From Saccharopolyspora erythraea NRRL 2338 (GTDB taxonomy: Bacteria > Actinomycetota > Actinomycetes > Mycobacteriales > Pseudonocardiaceae), in assembly GCF_000062885.1 (NCBI RefSeq), contig NC_009142.1:4949584-5013583 (forward strand): 64,000 nucleotides of DNA, in the 5' to 3' direction. Every line of letters starts with the position of its first letter. The first letter of the stretch is position 1. Below the pieces are notes generated by a model. The model searched no databases. It was not told the DNA's origin and saw nothing but the letters and a program-made list of their open reading frames with translations. Positions 40,829 through 61,124 of this stretch are shown here, piece after piece. The translations under genes were made by a program, and so were the position numbers.

Positions 40829-40838
40829 GGAGGCGACG

Positions 40839-43237: not shown

Positions 43238-43239
43238 TC

Positions 43240-43872: not shown

Positions 43873-45163
43873 CAGCGCAACCGGTCCGCCCGACGTCCGC
43901 CCCGCGAACCAGGAAAAGGCGGGCGGTGCGGGTCGAATTGCCGTGGTGGGCATGCCGGCTGCCGGCCACGTCAACCCGAGCCTGCCGATCGTGCGTGAAC
44001 TGACCAGTCGCGGCGTGGAGGTCGCCTACTACACCAGCGACGAGTTCCGATCGGCGGTCGAGGACACCGGCTGCGAGTTCCGCGCCTACCCGGCGGGCGC
44101 GCTCGGGTCGGCCGACATCGCGAAGGCCACGCGGACCGGCGGCCCGGTCCGGGTCGTCGCCCGGATCCTGAAGGCCACCGAGACGCTGCTGCCGTTCCTG
44201 CTCTCCGAAACGAAGTCGGAACGTCCTGACGCGATCGTCTTCGACTCCAACGCGATCTGGGGCCGCATGGCCGCGGCGAGCCTCGGCCTGCCCATGATCT
44301 CGCTGATGACGACCATCATGGTCGGCGGCAAGGACTTCTCCACCCTGACCGCACGCGAATGGCTCCACTTCCTCCGCGAGGCCCTCCCCGGTGTGCCTGC
44401 CGCGCGGTCGGCGAAGCGCCGCGTGGTGCAACGGTTCGGCAAGCAGCCCTACCCGCCGGCACCGAGCCTGCCGATGCGCGGCGACCTGACGATCTTCCCG
44501 GTGCCGAGCTGGATGCAGTCACCGAACGCGCGTCTCGACGAGCACTGCCGGTTCGTCGGACCCACGATCTCCGCGGAGAGCCGCGACCACCGCCTCGACC
44601 CCGAACTCGCCGCCTTCGTCGACGGCCCCGAGCCGCTGACCCTGGTGTCCCTGGGCACCCTGCACACCGGCAGCGAGGCGTTCTTCCGCGCCTGCTTCGA
44701 AGCTCAGGCGGCACTGCCGACACGTGTCGTGCTCACGGTCGGCTCGCACACCGATCCGGCGAAGCTGGGACCGCCGCCGTCGAACACCCTGATCCGCACC
44801 TCGGTGCCGCAGCTCGACGTCCTGCGGCGCGCGGACGTGTTCGTCACGCACGGAGGGATGAACAGCGCGCTGGAAGGACTGGCGTGCGGGGTGCCGCTCG
44901 TCGTCGTCCCGCAGCAGTCCGAGCAACTGGTCATCGGCCGGGCCGTCGCCGACCGCGGTGCCGGAGTCGTGCTGCGCCACAACCTGTCGAACCGGCCGGT
45001 GCCCGCCGCGGAACTGCGCGCCGCCGTCGACCGCGCCCTGACCGACTCGTCCCTGCGCGCAGCGGCGCGGGAAGCGGGCGCGTCCTTCGGCGAGGAAGGC
45101 GGAGCGGTCGCGGCGGCCGACGCCATCCAGGACCACCTGCGGGCCCGGAGCACGCACCGGTGA
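43865..45163 (+). CDS. Macrolide-type UDP-glycosyltransferase (MGT/GT1)
   Basis: A 432-residue GT-B enzyme of family GT1. The acceptor half begins IAVVGMPAAGHVNPSLPIVR with the catalytic His of AGHVNP. The donor half has SLGTLHTGSEAFF and the nucleotide-sugar site VPQLDVLRRADVFVTHGGMN, SALEGLACGVPLVVVPQQSE and Q at the sugar contact. These enzymes glucosylate macrolides or other hydrophobic hydroxyl compounds, often for self-resistance. Coupled to TetR, it looks like an inducible detoxification unit. Whether it belongs to the PKS cluster across the 45-bp repeat is unclear. Confidence 0.88.
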   Translation: MNDSATGPPDVRPANQEKAGGAGRIAVVGMPAAGHVNPSLPIVRELTSRGVEVAYYTSDEFRSAVEDTGCEFRAYPAGALGSADIAKATRTGGPVRVVARILKATETLLPFLLSETKSERPDAIVFDSNAIWGRMAAASLGLPMISLMTTIMVGGKDFSTLTAREWLHFLREALPGVPAARSAKRRVVQRFGKQPYPPAPSLPMRGDLTIFPVPSWMQSPNARLDEHCRFVGPTISAESRDHRLDPELAAFVDGPEPLTLVSLGTLHTGSEAFFRACFEAQAALPTRVVLTVGSHTDPAKLGPPPSNTLIRTSVPQLDVLRRADVFVTHGGMNSALEGLACGVPLVVVPQQSEQLVIGRAVADRGAGVVLRHNLSNRPVPAAELRAAVDRALTDSSLRAAAREAGASFGEEGGAVAAADAIQDHLRARSTHR

Positions 45164-45182
45164 TCCGGGCTGAACCGCGAGC

Positions 45183-45227
45183 TAAGACGTGTTTCGGATG
45201 TGGCTTGCGTAGTGGGTCGCCTGGCGG
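45183..45227 (-). repeat. Dispersed 45-bp repeat, copy B
   Basis: TAAGACGTGTTTCGGATGTG through GGGTCGCCTGGCGG is the inverted counterpart of 3254-3298 (about 42 of 45 identical). It fills the gap between the converging glycosyltransferase and thioesterase genes, ending next to the thioesterase stop codon. It is the likely boundary of the biosynthetic cluster. Confidence 0.75.
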
Positions 45228-45228
45228 C

Positions 45229-45849
45229 CTAGCGGAGCTTCACGCCGAGGAACCGGCCCTCGGCGGAGACGAGAGCGGTGTCCGCCGCGGCGGCCGTGGC
45301 GATCGTGGCGCGGCCGATCGGGTGGTCACCGGACTCGTCCAGCCACGCCTTGAGCCGCAGAGGCGTCTGAAGCGGCACCGGCCGCCGGTACCGCACGGAC
45401 AACGTCACCGTCACCCCCGGGCGTCCGTTCGCCGCGTGGGCACGGCCGAGGATCTGGTCCAGCAGCAGTGCGCTGATCCCGCCGTGGGCGTAGCGCGCCG
45501 GGCCCTCGTAGGCCAACCCGAGCGTGCACGTTCCGACCGCGACGCCGTCGACGACCTCCACGGTCATCGGTGGTGCCATCGGGTTCCCCGGCCCGACGAC
45601 CGGGTTGTACATGTACGGCCCCGAGCTGACCGCGTCGGCGGACGCGGGCTCCCCCGGCGTTCTCGTCGCCGTGTTCAGCTCCGGGATCAACGCACGTGCG
45701 CGCTCGGCGACACCGAGCAGGGCATCCGTTCCAGCCTCCGTGGAGACCGCCGCATCGGCCAGTTCCCGCAGCGCCGCGCCCAGTTCGGCCGCGGCCGGCC
45801 GTCGCCTCTGCACCGGCGCGGCCTGCGCCTGCGGGCTCAGTTGGTCCAT
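45229..45849 (-). CDS. PaaI-like hotdog thioesterase
   Basis: A 206-residue hotdog-fold protein. The first 85 residues are an N-terminal helical extension; the fold proper starts at MAPPMTVEVVDGVAVGTCTL and contains YEGPARYAHGGISALLLDQI, the hallmark helix with the conserved H-GG motif, then VTLSVRYRRPVPLQTPLRLK. PaaI-type enzymes hydrolyse acyl-CoA or acyl-ACP thioesters. It lies at the end of the PKS gene set on the same strand and may clear stalled chains. The link is inferred. Confidence 0.82.
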   Translation of the reverse strand: MDQLSPQAQAAPVQRRRPAAAELGAALRELADAAVSTEAGTDALLGVAERARALIPELNTATRTPGEPASADAVSSGPYMYNPVVGPGNPMAPPMTVEVVDGVAVGTCTLGLAYEGPARYAHGGISALLLDQILGRAHAANGRPGVTVTLSVRYRRPVPLQTPLRLKAWLDESGDHPIGRATIATAAAADTALVSAEGRFLGVKLR

Positions 45850-45889
45850 CCGCCTACTCTCCCGGATCGGTTGCTACGCGAGTTGTCGA

Positions 45890-46840
45890 TCAGGGCCGCG
45901 CAGCGAGCCTTTCGCGCCACCACGTGACCGTCGCGGCGAGCGCGTCCTGCGCTGGTGTGGCCTCCTCCGAGAACGTCTCGCAGTAGGAACCGGAATCCAC
46001 CACGAACGGCTCGTCGAACTGGTAGCGGATCTCCACCAGCTCGCGCAGCAGCGGCGACACCAGACCACCGAGGCGCACCATCGCCCACGGCGTCGCGGCA
46101 ACCCTGACCGGTGCGATGCCGGCGATCCGGCACATGGTCTCGACCGCCTCCCGCGCCGAGTACGGCGGCGGTGTGGGGACGTGCCACACGCGGCCCCACG
46201 CCCGCTCCTCCTCGGCCAGGCGGACCAGCGTGCGCGCGATGTCGGGCACGTAAGTCCAGCTGTGCGGCGCGTCCGGATCACCGAGGACGCGGACCGTGCG
46301 GCCCTTGAGCAGCGCGGGCACCGCCCGCTCGGCCAGGTGCCCGCCCGCCGTCACGCCGGGGCCGACGAAGTCCGAGGCACGGGCTTCGGTGACCCGGACA
46401 CGTCCCGCCTCGTGGCGCCGCAGGGCGTCCTGCCAGACGCGGGCGCGGACCCGTCCCTTGCGGGTGTTCGCCGCGGCGGGCAGGTCCTCGGTCAGCACCG
46501 CCTCGGTCGGACCGTAGGCGTAGAGGTTGCCCGCGAGGACCAGGACCGCACCGCTGCGCTCGGCCGCGTCGAGCAGCGCCGCCGACAGCGCCGGCCACTC
46601 CTCGACCCACCGGTGGTAGGGCGGCGCCGCGCAGCCGTAGACGGCCACCGCACCCTCGCACGCCTCGCCGAGCCGGACGCCGTCGGAGGCGTCGAGCGCG
46701 ACCTGCTCGACCGAGCCGTCGGTCCGGCTGGCGGGACCGCCCGACCGGCTGATCAGGCGCACCGCGTGGCCCCGGTCGGCGAGGAGTTCGGCGGTGGCCG
46801 CGCCGACCGGGCCCTTGCCGACGACGACGTGGAGGGACAT
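45890..46840 (-). CDS. NAD-dependent epimerase/dehydratase family protein
   Basis: A 316-residue Rossmann-fold protein of the extended or atypical SDR type. The dinucleotide loop is VVVGKGPVGAATAELLADRG. The usual Tyr-X3-Lys is not clear: the region after VLAGNLYAYGPTEAVLTEDL carries the Tyr but a Lys follows only at NTRKGRVRA. AERAVPALLKGRTVRVLGDP and APHSWTYVPDIARTLVRLAE match NAD(P)H-binding reductases such as SDR_a. It could reduce the amino ketone expected from the oxoamine synthase. This is inference from position. Confidence 0.78.
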   Translation of the reverse strand: MSLHVVVGKGPVGAATAELLADRGHAVRLISRSGGPASRTDGSVEQVALDASDGVRLGEACEGAVAVYGCAAPPYHRWVEEWPALSAALLDAAERSGAVLVLAGNLYAYGPTEAVLTEDLPAAANTRKGRVRARVWQDALRRHEAGRVRVTEARASDFVGPGVTAGGHLAERAVPALLKGRTVRVLGDPDAPHSWTYVPDIARTLVRLAEEERAWGRVWHVPTPPPYSAREAVETMCRIAGIAPVRVAATPWAMVRLGGLVSPLLRELVEIRYQFDEPFVVDSGSYCETFSEEATPAQDALAATVTWWRERLAARP

Positions 46841-46922
46841 TTGCGTCTCCTGGAGTTGGGGTACGGCGGAACTGCATCAGAAGCCGCCGACAGCATCACC
46901 GCTCGCGAGGGATGCTGTCAGC

Positions 46923-47258
46923 TCATTTGCCATTGTGGTCGGCGAAGCTCACCGTGCGGACGATGCGCGCGTCGACGGCCTTGCCGATCGGTTCGAGCGC
47001 CTGCTCGTGCACCGGGCGGTCCACGCGCAGCAGCATGATCGCGTCCGATCCTCCGGAGGTCTGGCTCACCGCGGCCGCGTGGATGTTGGCGCCGGCCTCG
47101 CGCAGCGCGGAGTCCACGTACGGCGAAGGCGCTTTCTCGATGAGCTTCTGGTGCCGTCGTTGCACCGAGCAGTCCCGCTCGCCCAGGTGCACCGCCGCGC
47201 CGTACTCGTCGTCGGAGCCGGTCTTGTCGGTTCGGGAACGGGACGCGGTGTTCTGCAT
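46923..47258 (-). CDS. Chimeric ORF: biotin-carboxylase fragment joined to an ACT-domain fragment
   Basis: A 111-residue frame with a GGGAGA site before ATG 47258. Residues about 20-50 ([24 protein letters not shown]) are a strongly conserved internal piece of biotin carboxylase. Residues about 54-108 ([51 protein letters not shown]) are the C-terminal ACT domain of 3-phosphoglycerate dehydrogenase. Neither fragment can fold as its full parent domain. The ORF lies between the enoyl-reductase-like and epimerase-like genes, with short gaps, on the same strand. It may be a recombination relic or a new small protein. Confidence 0.7.
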
Positions 47259-47272
47259 GATCGTCTCCCAAG

Positions 47273-48223
47273 TCACCGGGTCGGATCGAGCACGAGCTTG
47301 CCGATGCTGCGACGCGACCTCAGATCGACGTGGGCCGCGGCGGCCTGGGTGAGCGGGTAGTCGCCGCCGATCAACGGCCGCAGCCTGCCCTCGGCCGCCA
47401 GGCCGAAGACCTCGGCGACCGTGTCGGCGAGCAGCGCGGGCTCCCGCACGACGTGGTTGAGCCAGAAGCCGACCACGCTGCGCGACTGCCGCATCAGGGA
47501 GCTGATCGACACCGGCCGGTCCGTCCGCGACGCCATGCCGTAGGTGACCACCCGGCCGAACGGCGCGAGCGCGGCGAAGGAGGCGTCGAACACCTCGCCG
47601 CCGACCATCTCCAGCACCACGTCCACGCCCTTGCCGTTGTTGGCCTGCCGCAGCCGCCCGGTCAGCCCCTCCGGCGCCGAGTCGACGACCTCGTCGGCAC
47701 CGAGCTCCGCGGCGATCCGGCGCTTGTGCTCGGAGGAGGCGGTCGCGATGACCCGGCCCGCACCCAGCTCCCGGGCGAGCTGGACCGCCAGCGACCCGAC
47801 CCCGCCGGCCGCGGCCTGCACCACGACGGACTCGCCGGGCGCGAGCCGTGCCGAGGTCCGCAGCAGGTGCGACGCGGTCACGCCCTGCAGCAGCAGGGCG
47901 AGCGCGTGGTCGTCGCTGAGCTCGTCCGGCACGTCGAAGGACAGGTCGTGCCACACCGCGGCGAGCTGTGCGTAGCCGGCGCGCGGGATCAGCGCGGCCA
48001 GACGCCTGCCTTCCGGGGTGCGGCCCACGACCTCGGTGCCCGGCACGAACGGCAGCCTCGCGCGTTCCAGGTAGGAGTTCTCCACCAGGTGGATGTCGGC
48101 GTAGTTGACGCCGGCGCGGTCCACGCGCAGCAGCACCTGGTCGCTGCCCACCGACGGCTCCGGCAGGTCCACCACGTTGAGGACCTCCGGACCGCCGTAC
48201 TTCTCGATCTGGATGGCTTGCAC
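47273..48223 (-). CDS. Quinone oxidoreductase-like MDR enzyme, probable trans enoyl reductase
   Basis: A 316-residue zinc-free medium-chain dehydrogenase/reductase. Typical parts are [57 protein letters not shown] and the NADPH loop [40 protein letters not shown] is family-like. The PKS proteins next door contain ketoreductase and dehydratase domains but no enoyl reductase, so this enzyme may supply that step in trans. It starts 17 bases after the KS gene stop. The role is inferred from context. Confidence 0.83.
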
Positions 48224-48240
48224 TGGGGTTTCCCTTCGCT

Positions 48241-51009
48241 CTAGGCGGTCGCGGCCGGGCTCGGCGCGGCGGTGTCCCCGGCCGACCGGAGCAGCTTCAG
48301 CGCCACGGTGGCCTTGCGCGCGAGCTCGTCGTCCGAGCTGTGCGCGATGCCCAGCCGGTAGCCGAGGTGCCCGTCGGCCGGGACGGCCGGGAGCGGCCGG
48401 GCAGCGCCGGCCGCGACGCGCTCCAGCTCCGCGAGCAGGTCGGTGGCGGTGCGCCCGACGACGAACCCGATGCCGTCCTCGGCTGCCGCGTCGCCGCCCT
48501 GCGCCGGTTCCTCGCCCTGCGGGGTGAGGCGGACCTGGTAGCCCTGCGGACCGCCGTCGAGCTGCGGGGTGCGCACCCAGCGGGCCTCCCCCGACTTGCC
48601 CATCCCCGTGACGGCGTCGAGCATCTGCAACGCGCCCTGGGCGCCGAAGTAGAACGGCTCGCCGTCCGGCCGTGCCGACGCGTCCACGCTCGCGCGACCG
48701 GCCTCGGTGATCACGCCGTGCACGTACTCGTCCTCACCGACCTGCTCCAGCGGCTTGATGACGAAGAAGACCGCGGCTTCGGCGGGCACGAGCTCCCCGG
48801 TCTGCTGCCCCGACTCGCGGATGCGGCGGGCGAACAGCTCGGTGAACTCCGGCGCCAGGTTCGCGTGCGCGCCGCCCACCAGCGCGACCGGGCACTCGCC
48901 CTGCTCCAGGTACCGGGCCGCGATGTCCAGGGACGCGCCGAAGGAGCACGCGTCGTCGTCCACCACCAGTCCCGGTCCCCTGGCGTCGAGCAGGTTGCAG
49001 ATCCGGCCCGCGACGATGTTGTCCATGTAGCCGGGAAGCGCGTTCTCCCGCGTCGCCGGGATCTGCGCCAGCACCTCATCCGTGCAGGCCGCCGCGATGC
49101 GGTCGCGGGTGGCCTGGTCGAGCGCCTGGAACTCGGGGACCTGTTCGAGCGCGCTCAGGTACTCCACGAGGCGGATCCGCAGGTTGCGGGTGAGGCCGGC
49201 CTCGGTGCCGCAGGTCGCGCCGATGAACACCCCGGCGTCGCGGCGCGCATCCTGGTCGAGGCCGGCGTCCTCGAACGCCTGCCCCGCCGCCATCACCGCG
49301 AGCAGCTGGGAGCGGTCCAGCTCCGCCACGACGCTCGGCGGGAGGCGGTACTGCTTCCACGGGAAGTCCAGGTCGTCGATCACGCCGCCGCGCCAGGTCC
49401 GCTCGGCGTCCCAGACCCCTTCGGTCGTCCGGTGCCAGCGGTCACCCGGGAACCCGGTGACCCCGGCGCCGGCCGCGCGGTCCTCGTCGAACTCCGAGAC
49501 GTCGACGGCGAACGGCGTGACGCAGCCGACGCCGACCACGGCCAGCGGGCCGAACCGGCGGTCGCGTGCTTCGGCCTCGGCCGGTCGGTGGTGTTCCGGC
49601 TCGTACTGCTCCAGGCAGACACTGCTGTTGACACCGCCGAAACCGAAGGCGTTGGACAGCACCCGGCGCGGCCGGTCCTCGCGCCGCGCCCACGTCTCGG
49701 GGCTGGTCGGCACCCGGAACGGCGACTGCTCCAGGTCCATCGACTCCCGCGGCGCGGTGTAGGAGTGGGTCGGCGGCAGCGTGTCGTGCTCGAAGGCGAG
49801 CAGGACCTTGATCAGGTTCGCCATCCCGGCCGCGGAGAAGGTGTGGCCGGTCAGCGCCTTGACCGAGCCCAGCGTCACCTCCTGCTCCGGCAGCGGCCTG
49901 CCGTCGAAGAGGTCCTTCAGCGACTCGACCTCCACCTGGTCGCCGTGCGGCGTCGAGGTCGCGTGGGTCTCGATGTGGTCGAGCTCCTCGGGCCGCACGT
50001 CCGCCAGCTCGAGCGCCCGGCGCATGGCCGACACCTGGCCAAGCGAGGACGGCGCGTAGATCGCCTTGCCCTTGCCGTCGCAGCGGGTGGCGATGCCGCG
50101 GATGACACCGGCGATGCGGTCGCCGTCGCGGACCGCGTCGTCGAGCCGCTTGAGCACCACGGTTCCCACGCCCTCGCCGGGGATCAGCCCGTTCGCGCTG
50201 GCGTCCAGCGGCGCGCTGTGGGTCTCGGAGAGCCCGCCGATCTTGGCGAAGGCGACGTTGCCCGTGACGCTCATGTTGCCCAGCGCGCCGCTGGCCAGCA
50301 CCGTGTGGTGGGTGCGGTCCTGCAGGTAGCGCACCGCCACGTCGATGACGGCCAGCCCCGCCGCGCACGCGGCGTCGCACACCAGGCCGGGCCCGGACAG
50401 GCCGAGCACGCGGCTGACCGCCTTGGCGAGCTCGACCTCGAAGACGTTGGTCGCCGACACGCCGTCGGGGTCGGGGAAGCGGGCGTGCACCGCGTCGAAG
50501 AAGCCGGCCTCGATCGCGTCCCGCTGCTCCGGGGCGAGCGCGCGGAACGCCTCGTCCTCGTTGACGTAGGGGAAGATCTCGCGCGCCTTGGCCGCGATCG
50601 AGGTGTCCAGCAGCAGGTCGTCGCCGAGCATGTTGCCGACGAACAGCGCGGTGCCCTCGGCTTCCAGCCGCTCCGGTGTGCAGCCGGCCGAGGTGATCGC
50701 ACGCAGCGTGGTGTCGAGGATCATCAGCTGCGTCCGGTTGAGATCCCCGACGGCGTCCTCGTCCACTCCCAGCAGCTCGGCCGGGAACCGGTAGTCGTCG
50801 ACGAAACCGCCGAACTTGCAGTAGGTCTTGTCCTCGGCACCGCGGTCTTCGGCGTAGTACTTCTGCCATTCCCAGCGCCGCGGTGGCGGGGTCGAGATCC
50901 CACTGCGGCCGGAGAGCAGGTTCTCCCAGTACGACTCGGTGTCGTAGCCGTCCGGCGGGAACACGCAGCCGTACCCGGTGATGGCCACGGGCTCGAAGTC
51001 GGTTGTCAC
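48241..51009 (-). CDS. Iterative beta-ketoacyl synthase with chain-length-factor-like second half
   Basis: A 922-residue protein with two ketosynthase folds, as in the KS-CLF pair of PfaC from polyunsaturated-fatty-acid synthases but without dehydratases. Unit 1 (about residues 5-470) has the active Cys near 215 in [12 protein letters not shown], His in [14 protein letters not shown] and Lys/His in [15 protein letters not shown]. Unit 2 (about 485-900) keeps a Cys in [14 protein letters not shown] but shows neither catalytic His motif, so it is probably a chain-length factor. GTG 51009 follows AAAGGA. It works with the AT-ACP-KR-DH protein encoded just upstream. Confidence 0.88.
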
Positions 51010-51154
51010 GCGGAAGTCCTTTCGTGTGTCGCCTCGCGGGCGCGGACGCGCTCGGCGCGGGTCAGCCGGCCGGAGCGCCGGTGGCGAAGTGGCCGGCATC
51101 GGACGGGGACCCGGTGCGGTCACCACGCGGCGACCGCACCGGGCTCGGATGGCG

Positions 51155-54100
51155 TCAGCGCCGCGGCTCGACAGCGTCCTCGGCGACCTTGGTCAGCACG
51201 AGGTCGGTGATGTCGCACAGCAGCCGGCCTGCGTCGTCGATGATCTGGGTGTCCACGTGGATCGGGACCTCGGCCGAGGTCTCCATCCTGGTGACCCTGC
51301 TGAACGCGTAGACCCGCTCGGTGGGCAGCGGCGAGCGGTGGAACCGCATCGTCCCGATCGAGACCGGCACGCAGAACCTGCCCGTCTCCTCGTAGATCCA
51401 CATCAGCGGGGCCCGCCACGCGTTGTCGATCACCGTCGGCATCGCGCTGAACCGCGGTGAGGTCCCGAAGGAGAACAGCCCCCTGTTGTGCGGCACCACG
51501 ATCTCGCCGACGACCGACGAGTCGCCGGTGGAGCGGACCGACCGCACGTGGCGGAACGTCGGACCGAACAGCAGGTGCCGGGACGTCCGCTCGTAGAAGG
51601 ACTCCAGGTCCATCTCGCGGCCGTCGGCCAGCAGCTCCGGCACCGACACCGCCGGCTCTCCAGCGGCCGGCGCCTGCTCGGCGAACCAGTACCTGCCCCG
51701 GGAATGCAGCCGGTCGGCCTCCAGCACCCGACCACCGGGACCGACCAGGTCCGAGCGGATCTCGGCGGAGACCTGCGTGCGGTCACCACCGTCGTCGGAC
51801 ACCTCGGCCCGGACCGAGAGCGTCAGCGGGAACTTCGGGTTGTCCTTGACGAACCTCAGCAGCTCGACGTCCTCGGCCGCCACCAGCGACCCGCCGGGCA
51901 CCGCCAGCCCGCTCGCCTCGGCATGCGCCTCGACGTGGAACACGGCGGGGAAGGTGCCCGCGCCGCGCACCGCGTGGTCCTCCAGGTACAGGTCGACGTC
52001 GCCGCGCAGCCGCTTGGCCGCGTGCACCGACGAATCGCCGCGGTGGTGGACCTCGTCGAGCAGCGGGTGGTTGAGCCGGTCGGCGACGTGGCCGGTGGGA
52101 CCGACCGGGGTCGCGATCCGCGCCTTCTCCTCGTCCAGGGCGGCGTCCATCCCTCCCCAGCTGTTGGTCCCGATGTCACCGCTGATGAAGGTCTCCGGGT
52201 CGAACCCGCCGTAGGAGAGCTCGCGGACCAGCGTCTGCACGCCCTCCTCGATGCCCACGAAGCTCATGCCGCGCTGACCTTCCTGGACCTTGCGCACCGA
52301 GTCGTCGGTGGCCATCCCGGTGCCCACCCACGCCGTCCACGCGATGGTGAACATCCGGCTGCCGGGCAGGATCCGGGCCATCTGCGCCGACATCTTGGGC
52401 ATGACGTCGGCGGCGGCGGTGTAGTCCACCTGGCCGTCCATGCCGATGCGCCCGAGGATCGAGCCGACCAGCGCGACGAACCGGGGCTCGTCGGCGGAGA
52501 CCGCCCGCCAGAGGTTGTACGCGCCGTTGACCTTGATGCGGACCAGGTCCAGCGAGTGTTCGAGGTCCTTCTTGTCCGCGGTGCGCAGGGACTGCAGGCC
52601 CGCCCCGTGCAGGACGCCGGTGATCCGGCCGTGGCGCAGGCGGATCCGCTCCATCGCCTCGGCGACCTGGCCCGCGTCGGCCACGTCGCACTCCTCGTAG
52701 GACACCTGCGGGTTGTAGGCCCGCAGTGCCACGAGGTTCTGGTACAGGGAACGGCGGTTGAGCAGCCTGCCGAACTCGGCGTTGACCTCGGCCGGGGTCA
52801 GCGAGGGGTTCTCCTTCTTGGCCCGCCGCATGTAGTCCGCGCGGTAGGAGGAGAGCTCGTCGTCGTCGAGGCCCAGCCATTCCTCGTCACCGCCGGGCAT
52901 CGGCGTCCGGCCGAGGATCACGACGGTGGCGCCGTAGGCCGCGACGAGTTCCTTGGCGCACTCGTAGGTGATGCCGCGAGAGCCACCCGAGACCACCACG
53001 ACGTCGTCGGAGTCCAGCCGCAGCGGCTCCTGGAGGTCGTTGTGCTCCAGTTCCTGCGGCATGACCAGGACGATCTTGCGAGTGCCGTCGGTGTAGGCCA
53101 CCTCGACGTTCGGCTCGGTGGTCGTGACGATCTCGTCGAACAACGCGTGCGCCACCGCCTGCGGCTCCTGCTCGGTGAAGTCGACCACCTTGGCCTTCAT
53201 CTCCGGCAGCTCGAGGGCGAGGCTCTTGACGAAGCCCGAGGTGAGGCCGCCGAGGGGATCGAGGGCGGAGGCCGACTCCAGGCCGAAGCACCCGCCGACG
53301 GCGGTGGCCGCGAAGTAGCCGCCGTCCGAGCCGGCCGCCGCCAGGCCGGGGTAGCAGGCCTTGGCGGTCAGCAGCTCCACGGCCATCCGGGTGTCGACCT
53401 CGCGCGTCCAGCTCTCGACCGGGGCGTCCAGGGTCGACTCGCCCTCCGAGGCACCTGCGAGCTGGTACAGGTTGATCACCACCTGCACCTGCTCCAGTTC
53501 GTCGCGGGCCGCGGCGAGCGCGGCCTCCAGCCGCTGGGGGTCGGAGAGGTCGACCTCGGTCGCACCGTCGATCCCGGCACCGGCGGAGCTGATCACCCGG
53601 GTCCTGGCACCGGCGTCGGTGAGCCGGGGCAGCAGCTCGCGGCAGACCTGCCCGCTCCGGTCGGCGATGACCACGACGCCCTTGCCGGACAGGGAGAAGT
53701 CCGGTTCCGCGCTCGCGGCCGGCGGCCGCTCGACCGCCACCGGCAGGTAGCGGTGCGTGACGGTCTCCAGCTCGCGCTCGAGAACCGGCGTGTAGGCCGG
53801 ACGGGTCGGCACCTCCTCGGACACCGCGGACGGCGTCCCGCCGGACTCGGGCAGGTCCGCCACGGCGATGAAGTCGATGACCTTGCGCAGGGTGTTGACC
53901 TCCGAAAGATCAACCTCCACATCCGCCGAAATACCGAAATGCCCCCGCACCGCGGTCAAAACCTCAACCTGCTTCACCGAGTCAACACCCAGATCAGCCT
54001 CAAGCTCCAGATCCAGCTCCAACAACTCCAACGGATAACCCGTCTTCGCCTGAGCCGTCTCCAACACCACACCACTGACCTCGGACACATCCCGACCAAC

Positions 54101-55861
54101 CGGGACCACCTCCGACGAGGCCCCACCAGCGGCAGGCAGATCCGCCACAGCGATGAAATCAATCACCTTCCGCAGCGTGTTGACCTCCGAAAGATCAACC
54201 TCCACATCCGCCGAAATACCGAAATGCCCCCGCACCGCGGTCAAAACCTCAACCTGCTTCACCGAGTCAACACCCAGATCAGCCTCAAGCTCCAGATCCA
54301 GCTCCAACAACTCCAACGGATAACCCGTCTTCGCCTGAGCCGTCTCCAACACCACACCACTGACCTCGGACACATCCCGACCGGCCACCGGCGCCGCACC
54401 TGCGGGGGCCGCCTCCTCCACGGTGTCCTCGACCGGCGCCGTGGCGGTGGGCAGTGCCGCGACCTGGTCGAACAGGTCGCCGAGCGTGATGTCGCCCTCG
54501 ACGGTGCAGGCGTCGACGCCCACGCCGAGGTGCTCGCCCAGCGCCCGCACGATGTCGGCGCGCACCCGGCTGCTGAACCCGAGGTCACCGGCCATCCGCT
54601 TGCCCACCCCCAGAAGGGCCGCGGGATACCCGGTGTGGCGCGCGACGACCTTGAGCAGCGCGTCGGCGTCGACGGTGACCGCCTCCGAGGTCGGCCCGGC
54701 GTTCGCGGGCTCGGCCACGTCCACCCGCTGAGCGGACTCGGACACCTCCGCCCGCTGCCCCTGCCACAAGCCGTGCACCTGGGCGAAGGTGATGAACCGG
54801 CGCACGCTCTCGACCGCGCCGACCGAGTGCACGTTGGTCGGCACCGACACCGCGTCCCGGCCGTCGAGGATCCGCTGGACCAGGCCGGACAGGATCGGCT
54901 TCGGCCCCACCTCGACGAACGCGCGCACGCCCCGGTCGTGGATGCGGGTGACCATGTCCTGGAAGCTGAACGGCGTCACCAGCTGCCTGGCCAGCAGGGC
55001 CGGGATCCGCGCGACGTCGTCTTCCCCGTAGTAGTCGCCGAAGACCGTGGACAGCACCGGAACCTGCGGCAGACGCCAGTTCAGCGACGCCAGCGTCTTC
55101 TCCAGGACCGGCACGGCCGGGGCCAGCAGCTCGGAGTGGAAGCCGTGCGACACCGGCAGCCGGGTCGTCTCCAGACCGGCCTCGCGGCACCGCGCGGCGA
55201 ACTCGTCGAGCGCGCCGCCGTGCCCGGACAGCACCGTCTGCGCGGGCGAGTTCACCAGGCTCCGGGTGACTCGCAGGTCGCCGGTGCCCGCGATCACCAG
55301 CAGCCGCTCCAGCCGGTGGCGCGCCTGGTCGTCGTCGGTCTGCACGCTCAGCATGCCGCCGCGGTCCTCCGGCTCGATGGCCTTCACCGCGACGCCGCGC
55401 CCGTGCACCGCCACGACGCCCTCCTCGAGCGAGAGCGAACCGGCGGCGACCAGGGCGCTGATCTCACCGAGGCTGTGCCCGACGAGCACCTCGGGCTCGG
55501 CGCCCAGCTCCACCACCAGCCGGTGCAGCGCGATGCTGGCCGCGAAGATCGACGGCTGCATGACCTCGGGGTCTTCCAGCTCGCTCGCCGCGTCGTCGGA
55601 GAACACCAGGCCGGTGAGGCTGCGCCCGGTGAGCTCCCCGTAGGTGGCGTCGACCCGCCGGAAGGCGTCGTCGACCACGGGATAGCGCTCGGCGAGCCCG
55701 TCGAGCATGCGCGGGTACTGGGCGCCGTGGCCCGGGAACATCAGGCAGCTGCGGAGACCGTCGCCGGGCGAGCCGAGGAAGATCCCCTGCATCTGCAGCT
55801 TGTGCTGGACATCGGGCGGGAAAGCGGTCGCGGAGTTCCGGCCCGTCGGGGTCGTTGTCAC
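51155..55861 (-). CDS. PUFA-synthase-like PKS subunit: AT-ACP-ACP-ACP-KR-DH
   Basis: A 1568-residue multidomain protein. Acyltransferase (about 35-350) has FPGHGAQYP and the active Ser near 130 in VGHSLGE. Carrier 1 (about 385-470) has an unusual GFSS where carriers normally have G-x-DS. Carriers 2 and 3 (Ser near 532 and 627 in LGVDSVKQVE) are identical over about 68 residues. Ketoreductase (about 650-1200, catalytic half from 940) has SGGSRGITYECAKEL and the Ser/Tyr pair in VGSILGR and DYTAAADVM. Dehydratase (about 1260-1568) has DHAVRGAGTFPAVFHVE and VIDNAWRAPL. No ketosynthase is present; KS is a separate protein. Start GTG 55861 with AAGGAG, 17 bases after the oxoamine synthase stop. Confidence 0.88.
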   Translation of the reverse strand: MTTTPTGRNSATAFPPDVQHKLQMQGIFLGSPGDGLRSCLMFPGHGAQYPRMLDGLAERYPVVDDAFRRVDATYGELTGRSLTGLVFSDDAASELEDPEVMQPSIFAASIALHRLVVELGAEPEVLVGHSLGEISALVAAGSLSLEEGVVAVHGRGVAVKAIEPEDRGGMLSVQTDDDQARHRLERLLVIAGTGDLRVTRSLVNSPAQTVLSGHGGALDEFAARCREAGLETTRLPVSHGFHSELLAPAVPVLEKTLASLNWRLPQVPVLSTVFGDYYGEDDVARIPALLARQLVTPFSFQDMVTRIHDRGVRAFVEVGPKPILSGLVQRILDGRDAVSVPTNVHSVGAVESVRRFITFAQVHGLWQGQRAEVSESAQRVDVAEPANAGPTSEAVTVDADALLKVVARHTGYPAALLGVGKRMAGDLGFSSRVRADIVRALGEHLGVGVDACTVEGDITLGDLFDQVAALPTATAPVEDTVEEAAPAGAAPVAGRDVSEVSGVVLETAQAKTGYPLELLELDLELEADLGVDSVKQVEVLTAVRGHFGISADVEVDLSEVNTLRKVIDFIAVADLPAAGGASSEVVPVGRDVSEVSGVVLETAQAKTGYPLELLELDLELEADLGVDSVKQVEVLTAVRGHFGISADVEVDLSEVNTLRKVIDFIAVADLPESGGTPSAVSEEVPTRPAYTPVLERELETVTHRYLPVAVERPPAASAEPDFSLSGKGVVVIADRSGQVCRELLPRLTDAGARTRVISSAGAGIDGATEVDLSDPQRLEAALAAARDELEQVQVVINLYQLAGASEGESTLDAPVESWTREVDTRMAVELLTAKACYPGLAAAGSDGGYFAATAVGGCFGLESASALDPLGGLTSGFVKSLALELPEMKAKVVDFTEQEPQAVAHALFDEIVTTTEPNVEVAYTDGTRKIVLVMPQELEHNDLQEPLRLDSDDVVVVSGGSRGITYECAKELVAAYGATVVILGRTPMPGGDEEWLGLDDDELSSYRADYMRRAKKENPSLTPAEVNAEFGRLLNRRSLYQNLVALRAYNPQVSYEECDVADAGQVAEAMERIRLRHGRITGVLHGAGLQSLRTADKKDLEHSLDLVRIKVNGAYNLWRAVSADEPRFVALVGSILGRIGMDGQVDYTAAADVMPKMSAQMARILPGSRMFTIAWTAWVGTGMATDDSVRKVQEGQRGMSFVGIEEGVQTLVRELSYGGFDPETFISGDIGTNSWGGMDAALDEEKARIATPVGPTGHVADRLNHPLLDEVHHRGDSSVHAAKRLRGDVDLYLEDHAVRGAGTFPAVFHVEAHAEASGLAVPGGSLVAAEDVELLRFVKDNPKFPLTLSVRAEVSDDGGDRTQVSAEIRSDLVGPGGRVLEADRLHSRGRYWFAEQAPAAGEPAVSVPELLADGREMDLESFYERTSRHLLFGPTFRHVRSVRSTGDSSVVGEIVVPHNRGLFSFGTSPRFSAMPTVIDNAWRAPLMWIYEETGRFCVPVSIGTMRFHRSPLPTERVYAFSRVTRMETSAEVPIHVDTQIIDDAGRLLCDITDLVLTKVAEDAVEPRR
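53892..54097 (-). repeat. 206-bp perfect direct repeat, unit encoding carrier domain 3
   Basis: These 206 bases are identical to 54177-54382 at a spacing of 285 bases, encoding the core of the tandem acyl carrier domains. Identity is complete at the DNA level, including third positions, and then drops sharply at both edges. The segment uses more A/T-ending codons than the surrounding gene. Confidence 0.95.
54177..54382 (-). repeat. 206-bp perfect direct repeat, unit encoding carrier domain 2
   Basis: Partner of 53892-54097. Perfect identity means very recent duplication or ongoing gene conversion between the two carrier-domain cassettes. Confidence 0.95.
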
Positions 55862-55878
55862 GTCGGGACTCCTTGTCC

Positions 55879-57069
55879 TCAGGAGAGAATGCCGTGTCGC
55901 TTGCCCGCCTGCCCCAGCAGCTCCAGGGCGCGGTCGATGGTCTCGTCGTCCATCGCCGCCGACACGTTGGCGCGGAAGCGGCTGGTGTTCTTCGGGACCG
56001 CCGGGGGCAGCGCGACGGTCACGTACAGCCCGTCGTCGATCAGCTCGTTGGCCAGCTTCAGCGCGACCTCGTCGTCGCCGATCATGATCGGCACGACCGG
56101 CGTGACGCTGCCCATCACCTCGTAGCCCAGCTCCAGCAGCCCGGAGCGCAGGCGGGCGGTGTTGTGCCAGAGCTTCTCGATGCGCCAGGACTCGCGCCGC
56201 ATGAGCTCCAGCGACTTCAGCACGCCCGCGACGGTCGGCGCCGGCAGGCTCGCGTTGAAGATGTAGGCGTGCGAGGTGTGGCGGATGTACTCGATCAGCC
56301 GCGTGGAACCCGCGACGAAGCCGCCCACACCCGCGAGGGACTTGCTGAAGGTGCCCATGAGGACGTCGGAGCCGATGCCGAAGTGCGCGGCGGCGCCCCG
56401 GCCGCCGTCGCCCAGCACGCCGACGGCGTGGGCCTCGTCGACCATCAGCATCGCGCCGTGCTGCTCGGCGAGCTTGCTGATGCCGTCGAGCGGGGCGATC
56501 TCGCCGTCCAGCGAGTAGACGCCGTCGACGACGATGAACTTCTTGGCGGCGTCGGCGTTGCGCTCCAGCACGTACTCCAGCTTCTCGATGGAGTTGTGCG
56601 CGAAGATCTTCACACTGCCTTCGGCCAGCCGGCACCCGTCGAGGATGCTCATGTGGTTGAACTGGTCGGTGATGATCACCGTCTCGGAGTCGCACATCGC
56701 CGAGATGGCGCCGAGGTTGGCCAGGTAGCCGGAGCTGAACAGCGCGACGGCCTCGGCGCCCAGCCACTGCGACAGGCGCTCCTCCAGCTCGTGGTGCAGC
56801 TTCGTCGTGCCGTTGCTGAGGCGGGCCCCGCAGGTGCTCGGACCGAACTGGTCCAGCGCGTCCTTCATCGCCCCGGCGATCTCGGGGTGCTCGGCCAGAC
56901 CGAGGTAGTTGCTGGTGCTCAGCATGATGACGTCGCGGTCGCGCAGCCGGGACCGCGAGGCCTGGCCGGACTCGAAGGGCGGCTCGAGGAAGTACATTCC
57001 GTTGTCGCGGGTCTGGCGGACCCAATCCGCCACAGGCGCGATGGTGCGTTCGTACGCTTCGTTGATCAC
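55879..57069 (-). CDS. PLP-dependent alpha-oxoamine synthase
   Basis: A 396-residue enzyme of the alpha-oxoamine synthase family (AONS, KBL, ALAS, serine palmitoyltransferase). These join an acyl thioester to an amino acid with loss of CO2. The PLP Lys is at about 243 in MGTFSKSLAGVGGF; Asp/His at 211/214 in MLMVDEAHAVGVLGD; the ring-stacking His in TDQFNHMSILDGC; STSNYLGLAEHPEI and LSNGTTKLHHELEERLSQWL near the N-terminus. GTG 57069 is chosen, since its upstream GGAGAGG fits and the length is usual. It probably releases the PKS chain as a 2-amino ketone. Confidence 0.88.
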   Translation of the reverse strand: MINEAYERTIAPVADWVRQTRDNGMYFLEPPFESGQASRSRLRDRDVIMLSTSNYLGLAEHPEIAGAMKDALDQFGPSTCGARLSNGTTKLHHELEERLSQWLGAEAVALFSSGYLANLGAISAMCDSETVIITDQFNHMSILDGCRLAEGSVKIFAHNSIEKLEYVLERNADAAKKFIVVDGVYSLDGEIAPLDGISKLAEQHGAMLMVDEAHAVGVLGDGGRGAAAHFGIGSDVLMGTFSKSLAGVGGFVAGSTRLIEYIRHTSHAYIFNASLPAPTVAGVLKSLELMRRESWRIEKLWHNTARLRSGLLELGYEVMGSVTPVVPIMIGDDEVALKLANELIDDGLYVTVALPPAVPKNTSRFRANVSAAMDDETIDRALELLGQAGKRHGILS

Positions 57070-57402
57070 GTGACCAAATCCCTCTCCGTGCGTTGACCGT
57101 TCGAAGGGAGCCGTTTCGCCGGTGTACCCGGCGGCGTCGTCGGCCTGGAACGTGTCAGCCCGGAGTATTTCCACGCATTCGCAGCGCTATGCCGCGGCTA
57201 TCATAGCGAGGTGCGAGGTCGAGTTGTGCGACGTTCGCCCGCGCGACGGATCTCTGACACGCGACGGGCGTTGCGCGGAAAGCGAATTCCCTGATAACCA
57301 CGCGGCGGGAGTTGACCCGGATTCGCTCTTCCGGCCGTTGACAGACTCATTGTTCCGACAACGAGCGTTGCGCAGGAGCGTTGCGGGACATTCGGGACAG
57401 CC
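57070..57402. promoter_or_regulatory. Divergent promoter region of the PKS cluster
   Basis: About 330 bases between the oxoamine synthase and the SARP promoter. The direct repeat GAGCGTTGCG occurs at 57363-57372 and 57376-57385 (13-base step), with a further GGGCGTTGCG upstream near 57267-57276. These could be SARP-type binding repeats, although the usual step is 11 or 22 bases. No gene is apparent here. Confidence 0.45.
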
Positions 57403-57430
57403 TTGACGGCTCGGCCGAGTCCTATACCCT
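57403..57430 (+). promoter_or_regulatory. Putative sigma-70-type promoter of the SARP gene
   Basis: TTGACG at 57403-57408, a 16-base spacer and TACCCT at 57425-57430 fit an actinomycete housekeeping promoter. The start would be near 57437, giving a leader of about 340 bases before the SARP start and containing a small ORF. Confidence 0.5.
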
Positions 57431-57590
57431 GATGGCCGTTCGCACAACGGAATGCAGACCCAGACCTCTGCACAACCTCCGAGGCCGCCGGTCTTTAACA
57501 ACCCGATATCCCAGCGGACGTTCCGACGGTGCAGCGTCCTCGAAGGTCCAGCATTCGAGACGACTGGACAGGTGAAAGGGGTCCCCCAGC

Positions 57591-57782
57591 ATGACGCTCC
57601 TGCGGGTTAACCCGAGGACCCGCATCCCGGACCGATCCACATGTGCACCAGCCTTCGGTTCCGCGCCGCGCGCGTCGCGCCTTCCGGCGAGTGCACCGAG
57701 CGGCCGGCGGTGCCGCACGAACCGGGCCTTCGAGGAGTCCGCGCCGGGGTTCCCTTCGCACGTCACCGGATCCGGCTCATGA
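57591..57782 (+). CDS. Upstream ORF coupled to the SARP gene (63 aa)
   Basis: ATG 57591 follows AAAGGGG at a good distance. The 63-residue frame ends with TGA at 57780-57782, which overlaps the SARP start (TCATGATG). The peptide begins MTLLRVNPRTRIP and is Ser/Arg/Pro-rich with no family match. It may act as a translational leader controlling SARP, or it may be chance. Confidence 0.4.
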   Translation: MTLLRVNPRTRIPDRSTCAPAFGSAPRASRLPASAPSGRRCRTNRAFEESAPGFPSHVTGSGS

Positions 57783-59500
57783 TGCGCTTCCGGCTGCTCG
57801 GCCCGATCGAGGCCGAGGACTCCCGCGGGCTGGTGCCGCTGGGCGGGACCAGGCAGCGGACGCTGCTGGCCGCGCTGCTGCTCGACGCCGGCCGCCCGGT
57901 CGACATCGCCAGGCTCGTCGACGCCGTGTGGCCGAACGACCCGCCCGCCACCGTCCGCACCCAGTTGCAGATCTGCGTCTCCGGGCTGCGCAGGCAGTTG
58001 CGCATGCCGATCCGGTCGAACCACGGCGGCTACACGCTGGAGGTGGACGCGAGCACCATCGACTCCGTGCGCTTCGAGGTCCTCATCCGCGAGGCCCGCC
58101 AGGCGATGTCGGAACACCGCAGCGGTTCAGCGGTCAAGGCGTTCCGCGCCGCACTCGACCTGTGGCGCGGGTCGGCCCTGCAAGGAGCGCCGGGGCTGGC
58201 CGCCGAGGCGGCGCGCCTGGAGGAGCTCAGGCTCACCGCCACCGAGCAGATGATCGACGCCGAGCTCGACCTCGGACACCACACCCAGGTCCTCGGCGAA
58301 CTGTCCGTCCTCGTCCGGGAGAACCCGCTGCACGAGCGGTTCCACGCCCAGCTCATGCTCGCGCTGTACCGCTCGTCCCGCCAGGCCGAAGCGCTCAACG
58401 TGTTCCAGGACCTGCGTTCGGTGCTCGACCACGATCTGGGCCTGGAACCCGGACCGGCCATCCAGGCGCTGCACCAGCGAATCCTGGTCCGGGACTCCAC
58501 ATTGGACTTGCCGGCGTCCGGGACGGACGGCCCGCCGCACCTGCCGGGAGAACAGCCGCCGCAACCGGCGGAGCCGGCGCAGGTGGTACCGCTGGCCGGC
58601 CGGAAGCGGGAGGTCCGCCACGTCGCGGAACTGCTGTCACGCGGCGGTCCACCGGCGGTCGTGGTCCTCACCGGACAGCCCGGTGTCGGCAAGAGCGCCG
58701 TGGCGACGGGAGTGGCGCACGAGCTTCGCGGCGTGTTCCCGGACGGCGTCGCGCACCTCGACGGTGAGGCCCTCGGTGACGACGGGGAGCACTACCCGAA
58801 CGCGGTGGGCACGCTGTTGCGGCAACTCGGCATGCCCCGGGCGCAGCTCCCGCGCGACGCCGCATCGCGGTACCGCTACCTCCACGGGAAGCTGCGGTCC
58901 ACCCGCGCACTGCTGGTCTTCGACGACGTCACCGACGAGAGCCGGGTGCGCCGGCTGGTGCCCGACTCCGCGCTGTGCTCGGTGCTGATCACGAGCAGGG
59001 ACCGGGTGTGGACGCTTCCGCGGTGCGAGGTTGTGGAGCTCGCGCCCCTCGACCTCGACACGTCGCTGGAGCTGCTGTCGAACGCGATCGGGCCCGACCG
59101 GGTCGCCGAGGCACCGGAGGACGCCCGGCAGATCGCGCTTTCCTGTGCCGGTTTCCCCTTCGCCCTGCACATCGCCGCCTCCCGGCTGCGGTCCAACCCG
59201 AACCTGACCCTGGCCCGGAGCGCTCACGAATGCCAAACCAAGGCCAGGAAGATCGGGGCGCTGGCGGGCTGCAACCCGGACGTGCTGCGCGCTTTCGCCG
59301 ACGGGTACAAGGCCATCAACGGCACGAAGAACGTTGTCGAACCGGCCCCGAACCCCGGACCCGCCGACGAGGTACCGAACGCCCGGCCCGCCGAGCCGAC
59401 GGCGCAAGGCACCGAACGGCGCCGCGCTGCGCCCGTCCAGCGGATCCCGGAGAACACGTCACCGCCCGGCCGTCCGGCGCACGCCGTGCAGGCGTATTGA
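57779..59500 (+). CDS. SARP/AfsR-type pathway regulator with NB-ARC domain
   Basis: A 573-residue regulator. Residues 1-95 are an OmpR-like winged helix (MRFRLLGPIEAE, ARLVDAVWPNDPPATVRTQL). Residues about 100-250 are the bacterial transcriptional activation domain (RQAMSEHRSGSAVKAFRAAL, NPLHERFHAQLMLALYRSSR). Residues about 300-500 are an NB-ARC ATPase with Walker A GQPGVGKSA and Walker B LLVFDDV. The TPR sensor domain of full AfsR proteins (about 1000 residues) is absent; a proline-rich tail ends the protein. It diverges from the PKS operon and is its likely activator. Confidence 0.88.
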   Translation: MMRFRLLGPIEAEDSRGLVPLGGTRQRTLLAALLLDAGRPVDIARLVDAVWPNDPPATVRTQLQICVSGLRRQLRMPIRSNHGGYTLEVDASTIDSVRFEVLIREARQAMSEHRSGSAVKAFRAALDLWRGSALQGAPGLAAEAARLEELRLTATEQMIDAELDLGHHTQVLGELSVLVRENPLHERFHAQLMLALYRSSRQAEALNVFQDLRSVLDHDLGLEPGPAIQALHQRILVRDSTLDLPASGTDGPPHLPGEQPPQPAEPAQVVPLAGRKREVRHVAELLSRGGPPAVVVLTGQPGVGKSAVATGVAHELRGVFPDGVAHLDGEALGDDGEHYPNAVGTLLRQLGMPRAQLPRDAASRYRYLHGKLRSTRALLVFDDVTDESRVRRLVPDSALCSVLITSRDRVWTLPRCEVVELAPLDLDTSLELLSNAIGPDRVAEAPEDARQIALSCAGFPFALHIAASRLRSNPNLTLARSAHECQTKARKIGALAGCNPDVLRAFADGYKAINGTKNVVEPAPNPGPADEVPNARPAEPTAQGTERRRAAPVQRIPENTSPPGRPAHAVQAY

Positions 59501-59856: not shown

Positions 59857-60434
59857 ATGGGTACTGTTGCGACCACGGGAATCTGGTCTTCGACCATCGG
59901 GGCGGACGGCTACCACACCTACGGCGAGGGCACCGACAACGAGTTCGACGTCGACCTCAAGGTCAACATCGCGTTCGAGGACGGCACGAAGACAGATCTC
60001 GGCTTCCGCTTCCACCACAACGAAACCGACGGCGACTACAACCCCGACCCGGTGGACCTGCCCGCTTTCATCTCACCGGAGACCGTCACCGTCGACGGGG
60101 CGAGTACAAGGTGATTCTCAGCGGCTTCAAGCGGGACGGCCAGATCGTCCGCCAGTTCGTCAGCTCCGAGGGCGGCTCGAACAGCGCCGACATCGTCGCC
60201 CTCTTCTCGCGCCTGCCCGCCAAGATGGACTTGGCGACCACCGAGGTGAACTACAAGGGCACGGGTAAGGCTCAGGCGGACGAGTTCGTCGAGATCCTCA
60301 ACCGCGGCACCGAGCCGGCCGACATCTCCGGCTGGACGCTGGGCGCCGACGACTCCGGCCAGGGCTGCTCCGGCAGCCGCGCGACGAGCGGAGACGGTCC
60401 TCACCTTGACAGGCAAGCGACTACTTGCCTATAA
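59857..60434 (+). pseudogene. Lamin-tail-domain-type protein, frameshifted and truncated
   Basis: ATG 59857 (GAGAGGA upstream) starts a protein whose first 86 codons have an acidic beta-rich pattern (NEFDVDLKVNIAFEDGTKTD, LPAFISPETVTVDG). At about 60101 the frame is lost. One frame over, the sequence continues as EYKVILSGFKRDGQIVRQFV and then a lamin-tail-like segment KAQADEFVEILNRGTEPADI, SGWTLGADDSGQ. After about 60362 it degenerates, where a lamin-tail domain would continue for another 50 residues, and it runs into the ArsR promoter. It is a decayed gene whose original role (secreted or envelope-linked) is uncertain. Confidence 0.6.
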
Positions 60435-60435
60435 C
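60406..60435 (+). promoter_or_regulatory. Promoter with built-in ArsR operator
   Basis: TTGACA (60406-60411), an 18-base spacer and TATAAC (60430-60435). The spacer carries a perfect inverted repeat AGGCAAG-N6-CTTGCCT (60411-60430), so a repressor would lie between the -35 and -10. The start would be at or next to the GTG at 60442, giving a leaderless mRNA. Confidence 0.85.
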
Positions 60436-60441
60436 TGTGCC

Positions 60442-60734
60442 GTGGACGCTGACCCCGACCTGTTCAAGGCCATCGGCGACGCGACGCGACGCACCATCCT
60501 GGACGAGCTGACCGACAAGGACGGTCAGACGCTGTTCGAGATCTGCGGCCGGCTGACCATGAAGCACGGCCTGGCCTCCTCGCGCCAGGCCATCTCGCAG
60601 CACCTCGCGGTGCTCGAACAGGCCGGCCTGGTGCACACCCGGCGGCAGGGCCGCTACAAGTTCCACCACATCGACACGGGCCCGCTGCGCTCGATCGTCG
60701 AGCGGTGGCCCATCGACCGAGAGGAACCGGACCC

Positions 60735-60738: not shown

Positions 60739-61124
<386 letters not shown>

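Follow-up and report, generated by a model that had tools for sequence, protein, structure and literature searches.

A PUFA-synthase-like polyketide synthase cluster with an alpha-oxoamine synthase in Saccharopolyspora erythraea and its possible sphingoid-type product

The window is a stretch of 64,000 nucleotides from Saccharopolyspora erythraea NRRL 2338 (contig NC_009142.1, positions 4,949,584 to 5,013,583 of the forward strand). At 45229-59500 it contains a cluster in which two subunits of a polyketide synthase (PKS) that resembles polyunsaturated fatty acid (PUFA) synthases are encoded beside an alpha-oxoamine synthase (AOS; the protein of this cluster and its relatives are called AONS). 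The genes and domains named by the original prediction, which was made from the sequence alone, are present at these positions, and a 111-aa open reading frame (ORF) at 46923-47258 is an extra gene beyond its list. The minus-strand order is AONS, a subunit with acyltransferase (AT), acyl carrier protein (ACP), ketoreductase (KR) and dehydratase (DH) domains (AT-psiACP-ACP-ACP-KR-DH, or AT-DH), a ketosynthase (KS) and chain length factor (CLF) subunit, a medium-chain dehydrogenase/reductase (MDR), the 111-aa ORF, an epimerase-type short-chain dehydrogenase/reductase (SDR) and a hotdog thioesterase (TE). A Streptomyces antibiotic regulatory protein (SARP) gene is divergent. The features are:

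55879..57069, minus strand: AONS; Pfam Aminotran_1_2; matches the NCBIfam AOS models, each below its curated cut-off; forms its own clade
51155..55861, minus strand: PKS subunit AT - degenerate ACP - ACP - ACP - KR - DH
54452..54637, minus strand: degenerate ACP (psiACP), aa ~409-470, carrier-serine motif lost
54136..54382, minus strand: ACP 1, a recent duplicate nearly identical to ACP 2
53851..54097, minus strand: ACP 2, a recent duplicate nearly identical to ACP 1
48241..51009, minus strand: KS-CLF subunit; KS catalytic residues kept, Cys of the CLF half not conserved
47273..48223, minus strand: MDR (PIG3/quinone-oxidoreductase-like), candidate trans-acting enoyl reductase (ER)
46923..47258, minus strand: 111-aa scar ORF, a biotin-carboxylase fragment (aa ~17-60) in frame with a SerA C-terminal region (aa ~48-111)
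45890..46840, minus strand: epimerase-type SDR (Pfam Epimerase), candidate ketone reductase
45229..45849, minus strand: hotdog TE (Pfam 4HBT)
57779..59500, plus strand: SARP-family regulator, divergent; BTAD and NB-ARC domains, below the AfsR cut-off

The AONS has a second in-frame start, GTG at 57174, further upstream; its relatives start at the equivalent of 57069 (comparison with loci L056 and L077). The cluster is probably pks5 of S. erythraea, judging by the fit of position and gene number, since the tables of PMC2206050 and PMC3827479 give pks5 as eight genes, SACE_4471-4478. No functional description of the 45229-59500 cluster, and no paper naming six SACE_447x tags, was found in the open-licence literature. 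The pfa cluster of S. erythraea is listed as a separate locus, SACE_0018-0028 (PMC3359211; PMC3827479), and fits Type H of Shulse and Allen (PMC3098273).

The AONS, AT-DH and KS-CLF genes form a core that recurs elsewhere. A contig search with the AONS found four loci (L056, L057, L058 and L059). L056 (Actinomadura sp. KC06) and L057 (Streptomyces sp. AcH 505) encode all three core proteins. A KS-CLF hidden Markov model (HMM) matches 18 of 392 genomes in the genus of AcH 505 at E 1e-80; only G430, which is AcH 505 itself, and G683, which has the whole core, exceed 1600 bits, while the other 16 matches score at most 338 bits. Identity to the window is 69% (L056), 62% (L057) and 64% (G683) for the AONS, 60%, 57% and 56% for the KS-CLF, and 51% (L056) and 45% (L057) for the AT-DH protein. 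The core genes are adjacent and co-directional in the window, L056, L057 and G683, and also, as frameshifted pieces, in L059. This last locus, on a 30% GC contig labelled Leuconostoc inhae (UNVERIFIED_ORG), has a distant, frameshift-broken core followed by an ABC transporter ATPase and permease (L059:5160-15827, in the order KS-CLF / AONS / AT-ACP-ACP-KR-DH). At L058 the AONS stands alone within 12 kb, and its best model is serine palmitoyltransferase (SPT), below the cut-off (597 vs 640 bits).

The same kind of HMM search returned 1 of 341 genomes in the family of the Actinomadura genome (E 1e-110) and 1 of 394 in the window's class (E 1e-115), in each case the query genome itself. A CLF-only query matched 24 of 397 genomes in the window's order at E 1e-15, with 929 bits for the window's own protein and 82 for the next; the genus, family, order and class samples overlap. 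A tblastn search of plasmids with KS-CLF, AONS and AT-DH gave no match above 60% identity. As a single-protein contig query the KS-CLF, for which poorly conserved patterns were used, gave no match, whereas the AONS query did find loci. The family is thinly scattered. The three-gene core is not a chance association, because the same three genes recur in other genera. The co-occurrence of KS-CLF and AT-ACP-KR-DH with an AONS, a point the original prediction had raised, is seen in L056, L057 and G683, and distantly in L059.

The AT-DH protein aligns over aa 377-1553 in one stretch with positions 1388-2568 of the PfaA model. By this alignment the subunit keeps the PfaA order without the KS, so the claim that an AT-ACP-KR-DH order is foreign to PUFA synthases does not hold. 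The AT carries GHSLGE with FHS, which we take to be a malonyl-specific signature. Three carrier domains had been predicted; the ACP tandem is present, but the first domain is degenerate and just two are real ACPs. At the serine position of the psiACP, three actinobacterial relatives (L056, L057 and L077) have R, V or T and the window has S. ACP 1 and ACP 2 are identical at 241 of 249 nt (8 differ). There are two real ACPs in the window, one in Actinomadura, two in G683 and two in L059; the number in AcH 505 is masked by a run of N.

The KS-CLF didomain matches PDB 6riw (named 'ORF10' there) in one stretch over aa 6-712; we take 6riw to be a PfaC-type KS-CLF. Both the KS half and the CLF half can be aligned across the relatives, and Cys215, His349, Lys384 and His389 are among the invariant KS columns. 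The scan of eight cluster proteins gave no Pfam match to a FabA-type dehydratase pair and no Pfam or NCBIfam match to a PfaD-type enoyl reductase; the MDR is the only candidate of the latter kind.

A KS tree of 26 rows was built after the weak row L099_21338 and the window CLF row had been dropped. The window KS family and L059 form one clade (100/96), which excludes the three PfaA, three PfaC and two enediyne PKS (PKSE) rows. The PfaA and PfaC rows are labelled by domain layout. The PKSE rows are L097, which has annotated enediyne neighbours, and L096, which we assume to be a PKSE. The sister of the window family (98/97) consists of six Streptomyces KS-CLF proteins. A PfaC-type label for these six rows is wrong for the two examined (L102 and L103), which are SDR-KS-CLF-KR-DH proteins. 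Like the window system, the two examined systems combine a KS-CLF with KR and DH domains, and their proteins have no FabA-type DH match. Unlike it, they split the domains otherwise, with separate AT and KR genes, and have no AONS within 15 kb. This AT / SDR-KS-CLF-KR-DH / KR system lies at L102:1417-10557 and L103:3966-13967 in two Streptomyces-group genomes.

The domains resemble PfaA/PfaC and RerA/PKSE layouts, which could mean a true PUFA (or enediyne-like) synthase that happens to lie beside an unrelated BioF/KBL-type gene. This is very improbable: the KS clade is distinct from the PfaA, PfaC and PKSE rows, FabA-type DH and PfaD matches are missing from the eight proteins, and in the four relatives found an AONS adjoins the PKS and falls in neither the BioF-like nor the KBL rows. 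The original description, a PUFA-synthase-like PKS that is yet no true PUFA synthase, agrees with the KS tree and the domain scan.

The AONS keeps the pyridoxal phosphate Lys, the stacking His and the substrate Arg of the AOS fold. Its NCBIfam scores are nearly equal (BioF 372, KBL 360, SPT 358) and all below the curated cut-offs. In a tree of 20 rows the four actinobacterial AONS form one clade (100/100) outside the KBL rows (80/90) and the BioF-like rows (100/100). Among ten rows scanned only L051 (KBL) and L085 (SPT) pass curated cut-offs, while L079, L084, L086 and L052 are named by annotation, motif or first look. The oxoamine synthase thus groups with neither KBL nor BioF. Such a grouping, together with a PKS among true PUFA synthases, or a match to a characterised pathway with another product, would have spoken against the original prediction, and neither was seen in the comparisons made. 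The sister of the actinobacterial clade (81/86) is a pair of AONS encoded in PKS/ACP clusters, one in Thioclava and one in Methylocystis. Outside the family the shortest path leads to L080, which is SPT-like (2.15), and the next to L081 (2.17). An SDR-AONS fusion beside PKS and nonribosomal peptide synthetase genes on a Streptomyces plasmid (L060) was considered as a relative, and its AONS falls outside the window family. S. erythraea also carries another AONS (L088, G000:C1:4827112-4828164) inside a 2184-aa open frame, which groups apart from the window AONS.

The 111-aa ORF matches the AccC model over aa 17-64 and the PGDH model over aa 50-104. In G001, the other genome of the same genus among the samples (a sister species), the two halves match neighbouring places about 2.2 kb apart, at 84% (aa 16-60) and 88% (aa 48-111) identity. 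Synteny between G001 and the window, at about 91%, covers both flanks (36639-47101 and 60399-64000). The G001 locus has lost most of the AT protein as well as AONS, KS-CLF, MDR and SARP. It retains an ACP-KR fragment fused in frame to a C-terminal biotin carboxylase half, then SerA, the epimerase (91% identical) and the TE (92%). The resulting hybrid ORF of at least 459 aa (L093:18209-19588, G001:C1:3626208-3627587) is apparently deletion-born. The G001 SerA has 536 aa, reaches 595 bits where the PGDH equivalog cut-off is 454, and lies in the same slot beside the carboxylase half.

From this comparison the 111-aa ORF is read as a biotin-carboxylase::SerA deletion scar. A working serine-sensing chimera was considered and dropped, because the sister locus has both parent genes and different junctions. 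The two species probably underwent separate deletions from an ancestor with both genes between MDR and epimerase, since the scar junctions differ between the window and G001. The ancestral cluster seems to have carried supply genes for malonyl-CoA and L-serine, because a scar remains in the window and a whole SerA with half a carboxylase in the sister locus. The cluster-linked SerA would have been an extra copy, since S. erythraea holds another SerA elsewhere, 81% identical to the G001 SerA over 530 aa. Of six own-genome paralogues compared in S. erythraea, the best carboxylase match is 68% identical to the G001 carboxylase half. The SerA part of the ORF also matches G001 at one more position, with 63% identity.

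Between the window and G001 the dN/dS is 0.28 for the TE, 0.31 for the epimerase and 0.46 for the kept AT fragment (aa 570-832; aa 425-585, a misaligned repeat, and aa 371-595 were dropped). The scar pieces give 0.50 for SerA (6 synonymous, 9 non-synonymous changes) and 0.21 for the carboxylase (3 and 2). Neighbouring genes, presumably a glycosyltransferase (0.25), two xanthine-dehydrogenase-like subunits (0.14 and 0.16) and a VOC protein (0.10), and the gene at 61686-62936 (0.37) set the local range. The TE and epimerase values fall within it, on small change counts. The reduction of carboxylase and SerA to a scar and the loss of most of the PKS from the sister locus could indicate that the S. 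erythraea cluster is itself decaying and its product no longer made. This is rather unlikely, since the three core genes, AONS, AT-DH and KS-CLF, have uninterrupted open frames, a strong codon-position bias and conserved residues, and the TE and epimerase have a dN/dS of about 0.3.

The most probable reading of the cluster, with a probability of roughly 0.55, is that an iteratively built, KR-DH-processed chain would be released by the AONS with L-serine. The AT would load malonyl units onto the tandem ACPs, and the KS-CLF would extend the chain iteratively, with the CLF setting its length. The KR and DH would process every beta-ketone, which without an ER would give a conjugated polyene; some or all of its double bonds may be reduced in trans by the S. 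erythraea MDR. The AONS would then condense the ACP-bound acyl chain with an amino acid (L-serine is the most likely one) and release CO2, giving a 2-amino-3-keto(-1-ol) product. The ketone may be reduced by the epimerase-type SDR, which would yield an amino alcohol. The hotdog TE probably removes wrongly primed chains, and the SARP would switch the cluster on. A PKS working with a serine-using AOS would be expected to draw on two building blocks, malonyl-CoA and L-serine. The linked SerA and carboxylase genes therefore favour a serine-derived, sphingoid-like product.

A number of observations weigh against release with L-serine. The SPT rows of the AONS tree form a group (100/98) that excludes the window AONS. 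Asn52 of the S. multivorum SPT is described as touching the L-serine hydroxyl via water (PMC10196870). The equivalent residue is S in the window and L056 and G in L057 and G683. It is N in L059, Y in L060 and L053 (two further AONS, linked either to PKS genes or to a long open frame), and N in the remaining 12 rows of the active-site alignment; the second S. erythraea AONS (L088) also has Tyr here. Judged from the alignment, the change at this position weakens serine use without excluding it. SerA also feeds glycine and cysteine, so its presence does not prove that the AONS takes serine directly. Neither the SerA nor the carboxylase half of G001 turned up in a search of eight stretches around other clusters; in Actinomadura the contig stops a short way upstream of the AONS. 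The same machinery might instead use glycine, alanine or another amino acid and make a 1-deoxy-type long-chain amino ketone with no sphingoid. The position of the AONS outside the SPT rows, the unconserved Asn52 position and the nearly equal BioF, KBL and SPT scores would suit such a variant. The extra SerA in the ancestral locus speaks for serine, and the variant is on balance improbable. For the sphingoid-like 2-amino ketone originally proposed, an origin from serine is strengthened by the lost SerA gene and weakened by the AONS tree and the Asn52 replacement.

The accessory genes also weigh against a saturated sphingoid. None of L056, L057, L063, L064, L076, L077 and L078 has a homologue of the window MDR, epimerase or TE; therefore, the shared core has KR and DH and no ER. 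Because of this the chain may be a conjugated polyene, and the core product may be polyene rather than a saturated sphingoid. Also against the sphingoid reading, the epimerase has no significant BLAST similarity to SPT-linked SDRs (best E 1.5), which we take to be CerR proteins, and a role as CerR-type ceramide reductase was dropped on this result. A structure model of the epimerase (mean pLDDT 54.3, from a two-row alignment) was set aside. No ceramide-synthase-like gene was recognised in the cluster.

A core without ER, as in RerA (PMC11563203), would also fit an AONS that takes a beta-ketoacyl or polyenoyl chain, with the amino ketone cyclising to a pyrrole, pyrazine or similar ring that bears a polyene tail. 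In tambjamine biosynthesis a serine-using AOS domain has been proposed to feed bipyrrole formation (TamD, PMC4698589). Among the genes recognised in the S. erythraea cluster none is a cyclase- or pyrrole-type tailoring gene, and a PlsC-type acyltransferase in the G683 cluster suggests lipid handling, so a heterocycle is less likely again than a decaying cluster. Release with L-serine thus ranks first, followed by the glycine/alanine variant, the decayed cluster and the heterocycle, with a true PUFA synthase or PKSE last.

PKS plus oxoamine-synthase sphingolipids are already known through SgaAB of Pseudomonas fluorescens MYb115, which according to PMC12134224 makes C24-C28 sphinganines from L-serine, with AOS release by SgaB. 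The window likewise encodes a PKS beside an alpha-oxoamine synthase, and iteration would be a further likeness. SgaA is described as a monomodular PKS (PMC12134224), whereas the window cluster divides KS-CLF and AT-ACP-KR-DH between two proteins of PUFA-synthase type. The Sga system has a KDS-reductase-like SDR and the window an epimerase-type SDR and an MDR, in a comparison made with the published description. With Pfa synthases the cluster shares KS-CLF, tandem ACPs and PfaA collinearity from the ACP to the C-terminal DH-like domain. It differs in having an AONS and no FabA-type DH pair or PfaD, and in a KS that has moved from the PfaA-like protein onto the CLF and falls outside the PfaA and three PfaC rows.

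RerA of Rhodococcus erythropolis PR4 (KS-AT-ACP-ACP-KR-DH, no ER) is reported in PMC11563203 to make polyenes up to C22 nonaenes. The window shares the AT-ACP(-ACP)-KR-DH order without ER with RerA and enediyne PKSs (PMC11563203). RerA carries the KS on the same chain, while the window has a separate KS-CLF and an AONS; the window KS also lies outside the two PKSE rows sampled (L096 and L097). As in bacterial SPTs and TamD-type AOS, the AONS has the AOS fold with Lys, His and Arg, fitting decarboxylative condensation of an acyl thioester with an amino acid. It differs from SPTs in lying outside their rows and in the replaced Asn52 equivalent of the actinobacterial members. The distinct features here are the split PUFA-like KS-CLF / AT-ACP-KR-DH synthase, the lack of an ER in the core, and the lost SerA and carboxylase.

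If the L-serine reading is true, the cluster would give bacteria a second design, besides that of SgaAB, for making sphingoids with a PKS, here in a genetically tractable erythromycin producer and with a product resembling the sphingolipids of animals and fungi. To our knowledge sphingolipid-like molecules are rarely reported from actinomycetes, and a product class with a polyene chain, if the chain is polyene, would be new. The SerA and carboxylase remnants turn the substrate question into a direct prediction. A more tentative view, doubtful as a whole, is that of a separate actinobacterial PKS/oxoamine-synthase lineage. Such a lineage would make polyene sphingoid bases on a split PUFA-related synthase, would once have had its own acetyl-CoA-carboxylase and serine-biosynthesis genes, and would be thinly spread across Actinomycetota and possibly into lactic acid bacteria.

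The related clusters have accessory genes of their own. A membrane protein missing from the window is common to L056, L057 and G683 (no Pfam match in the L056 and G683 copies). It has 295-305 aa at 52-81% identity and directly follows KS-CLF (L056:8937-9824; L057:19760-20677; L076:18541-19449). The AcH 505 cluster (L057/L063) and G683 add a phosphopantetheinyl transferase and the PlsC-type acyltransferase, and have an acyl-CoA carboxylase carboxyltransferase-type protein and an SCP2-like protein nearby. G683 also has a classical SDR; the same stretch in AcH 505 is a run of N. The window SARP and the one encoded near the L076 relative share 40% identity over 260 aa.

Near the core in AcH 505 and G683 there are SagB-type dehydrogenase and SagD/YcaO-type genes (L063:5797-11188 and L076:6993-12121; families scanned in G683 only), and AcH 505 also has a short possible precursor ORF close to them. 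These neighbours could belong to an azole peptide-PKS lipid hybrid or may merely form an adjoining cluster. After the core, Actinomadura sp. KC06 (L064:6088-19331, L056:9860-11623) has an acyl-CoA-dehydrogenase-like gene and a P450, together with two PKS proteins of modular type and a gene of the FAD-binding monooxygenase type. Elsewhere in the window, at 1470-2898 and 23235-26739, PQQ-type genes are apparently split over about 20 kb; from their N-terminal sequences we take them to be pqqD/E, pqqB/C and a PQQ-dependent alcohol dehydrogenase.

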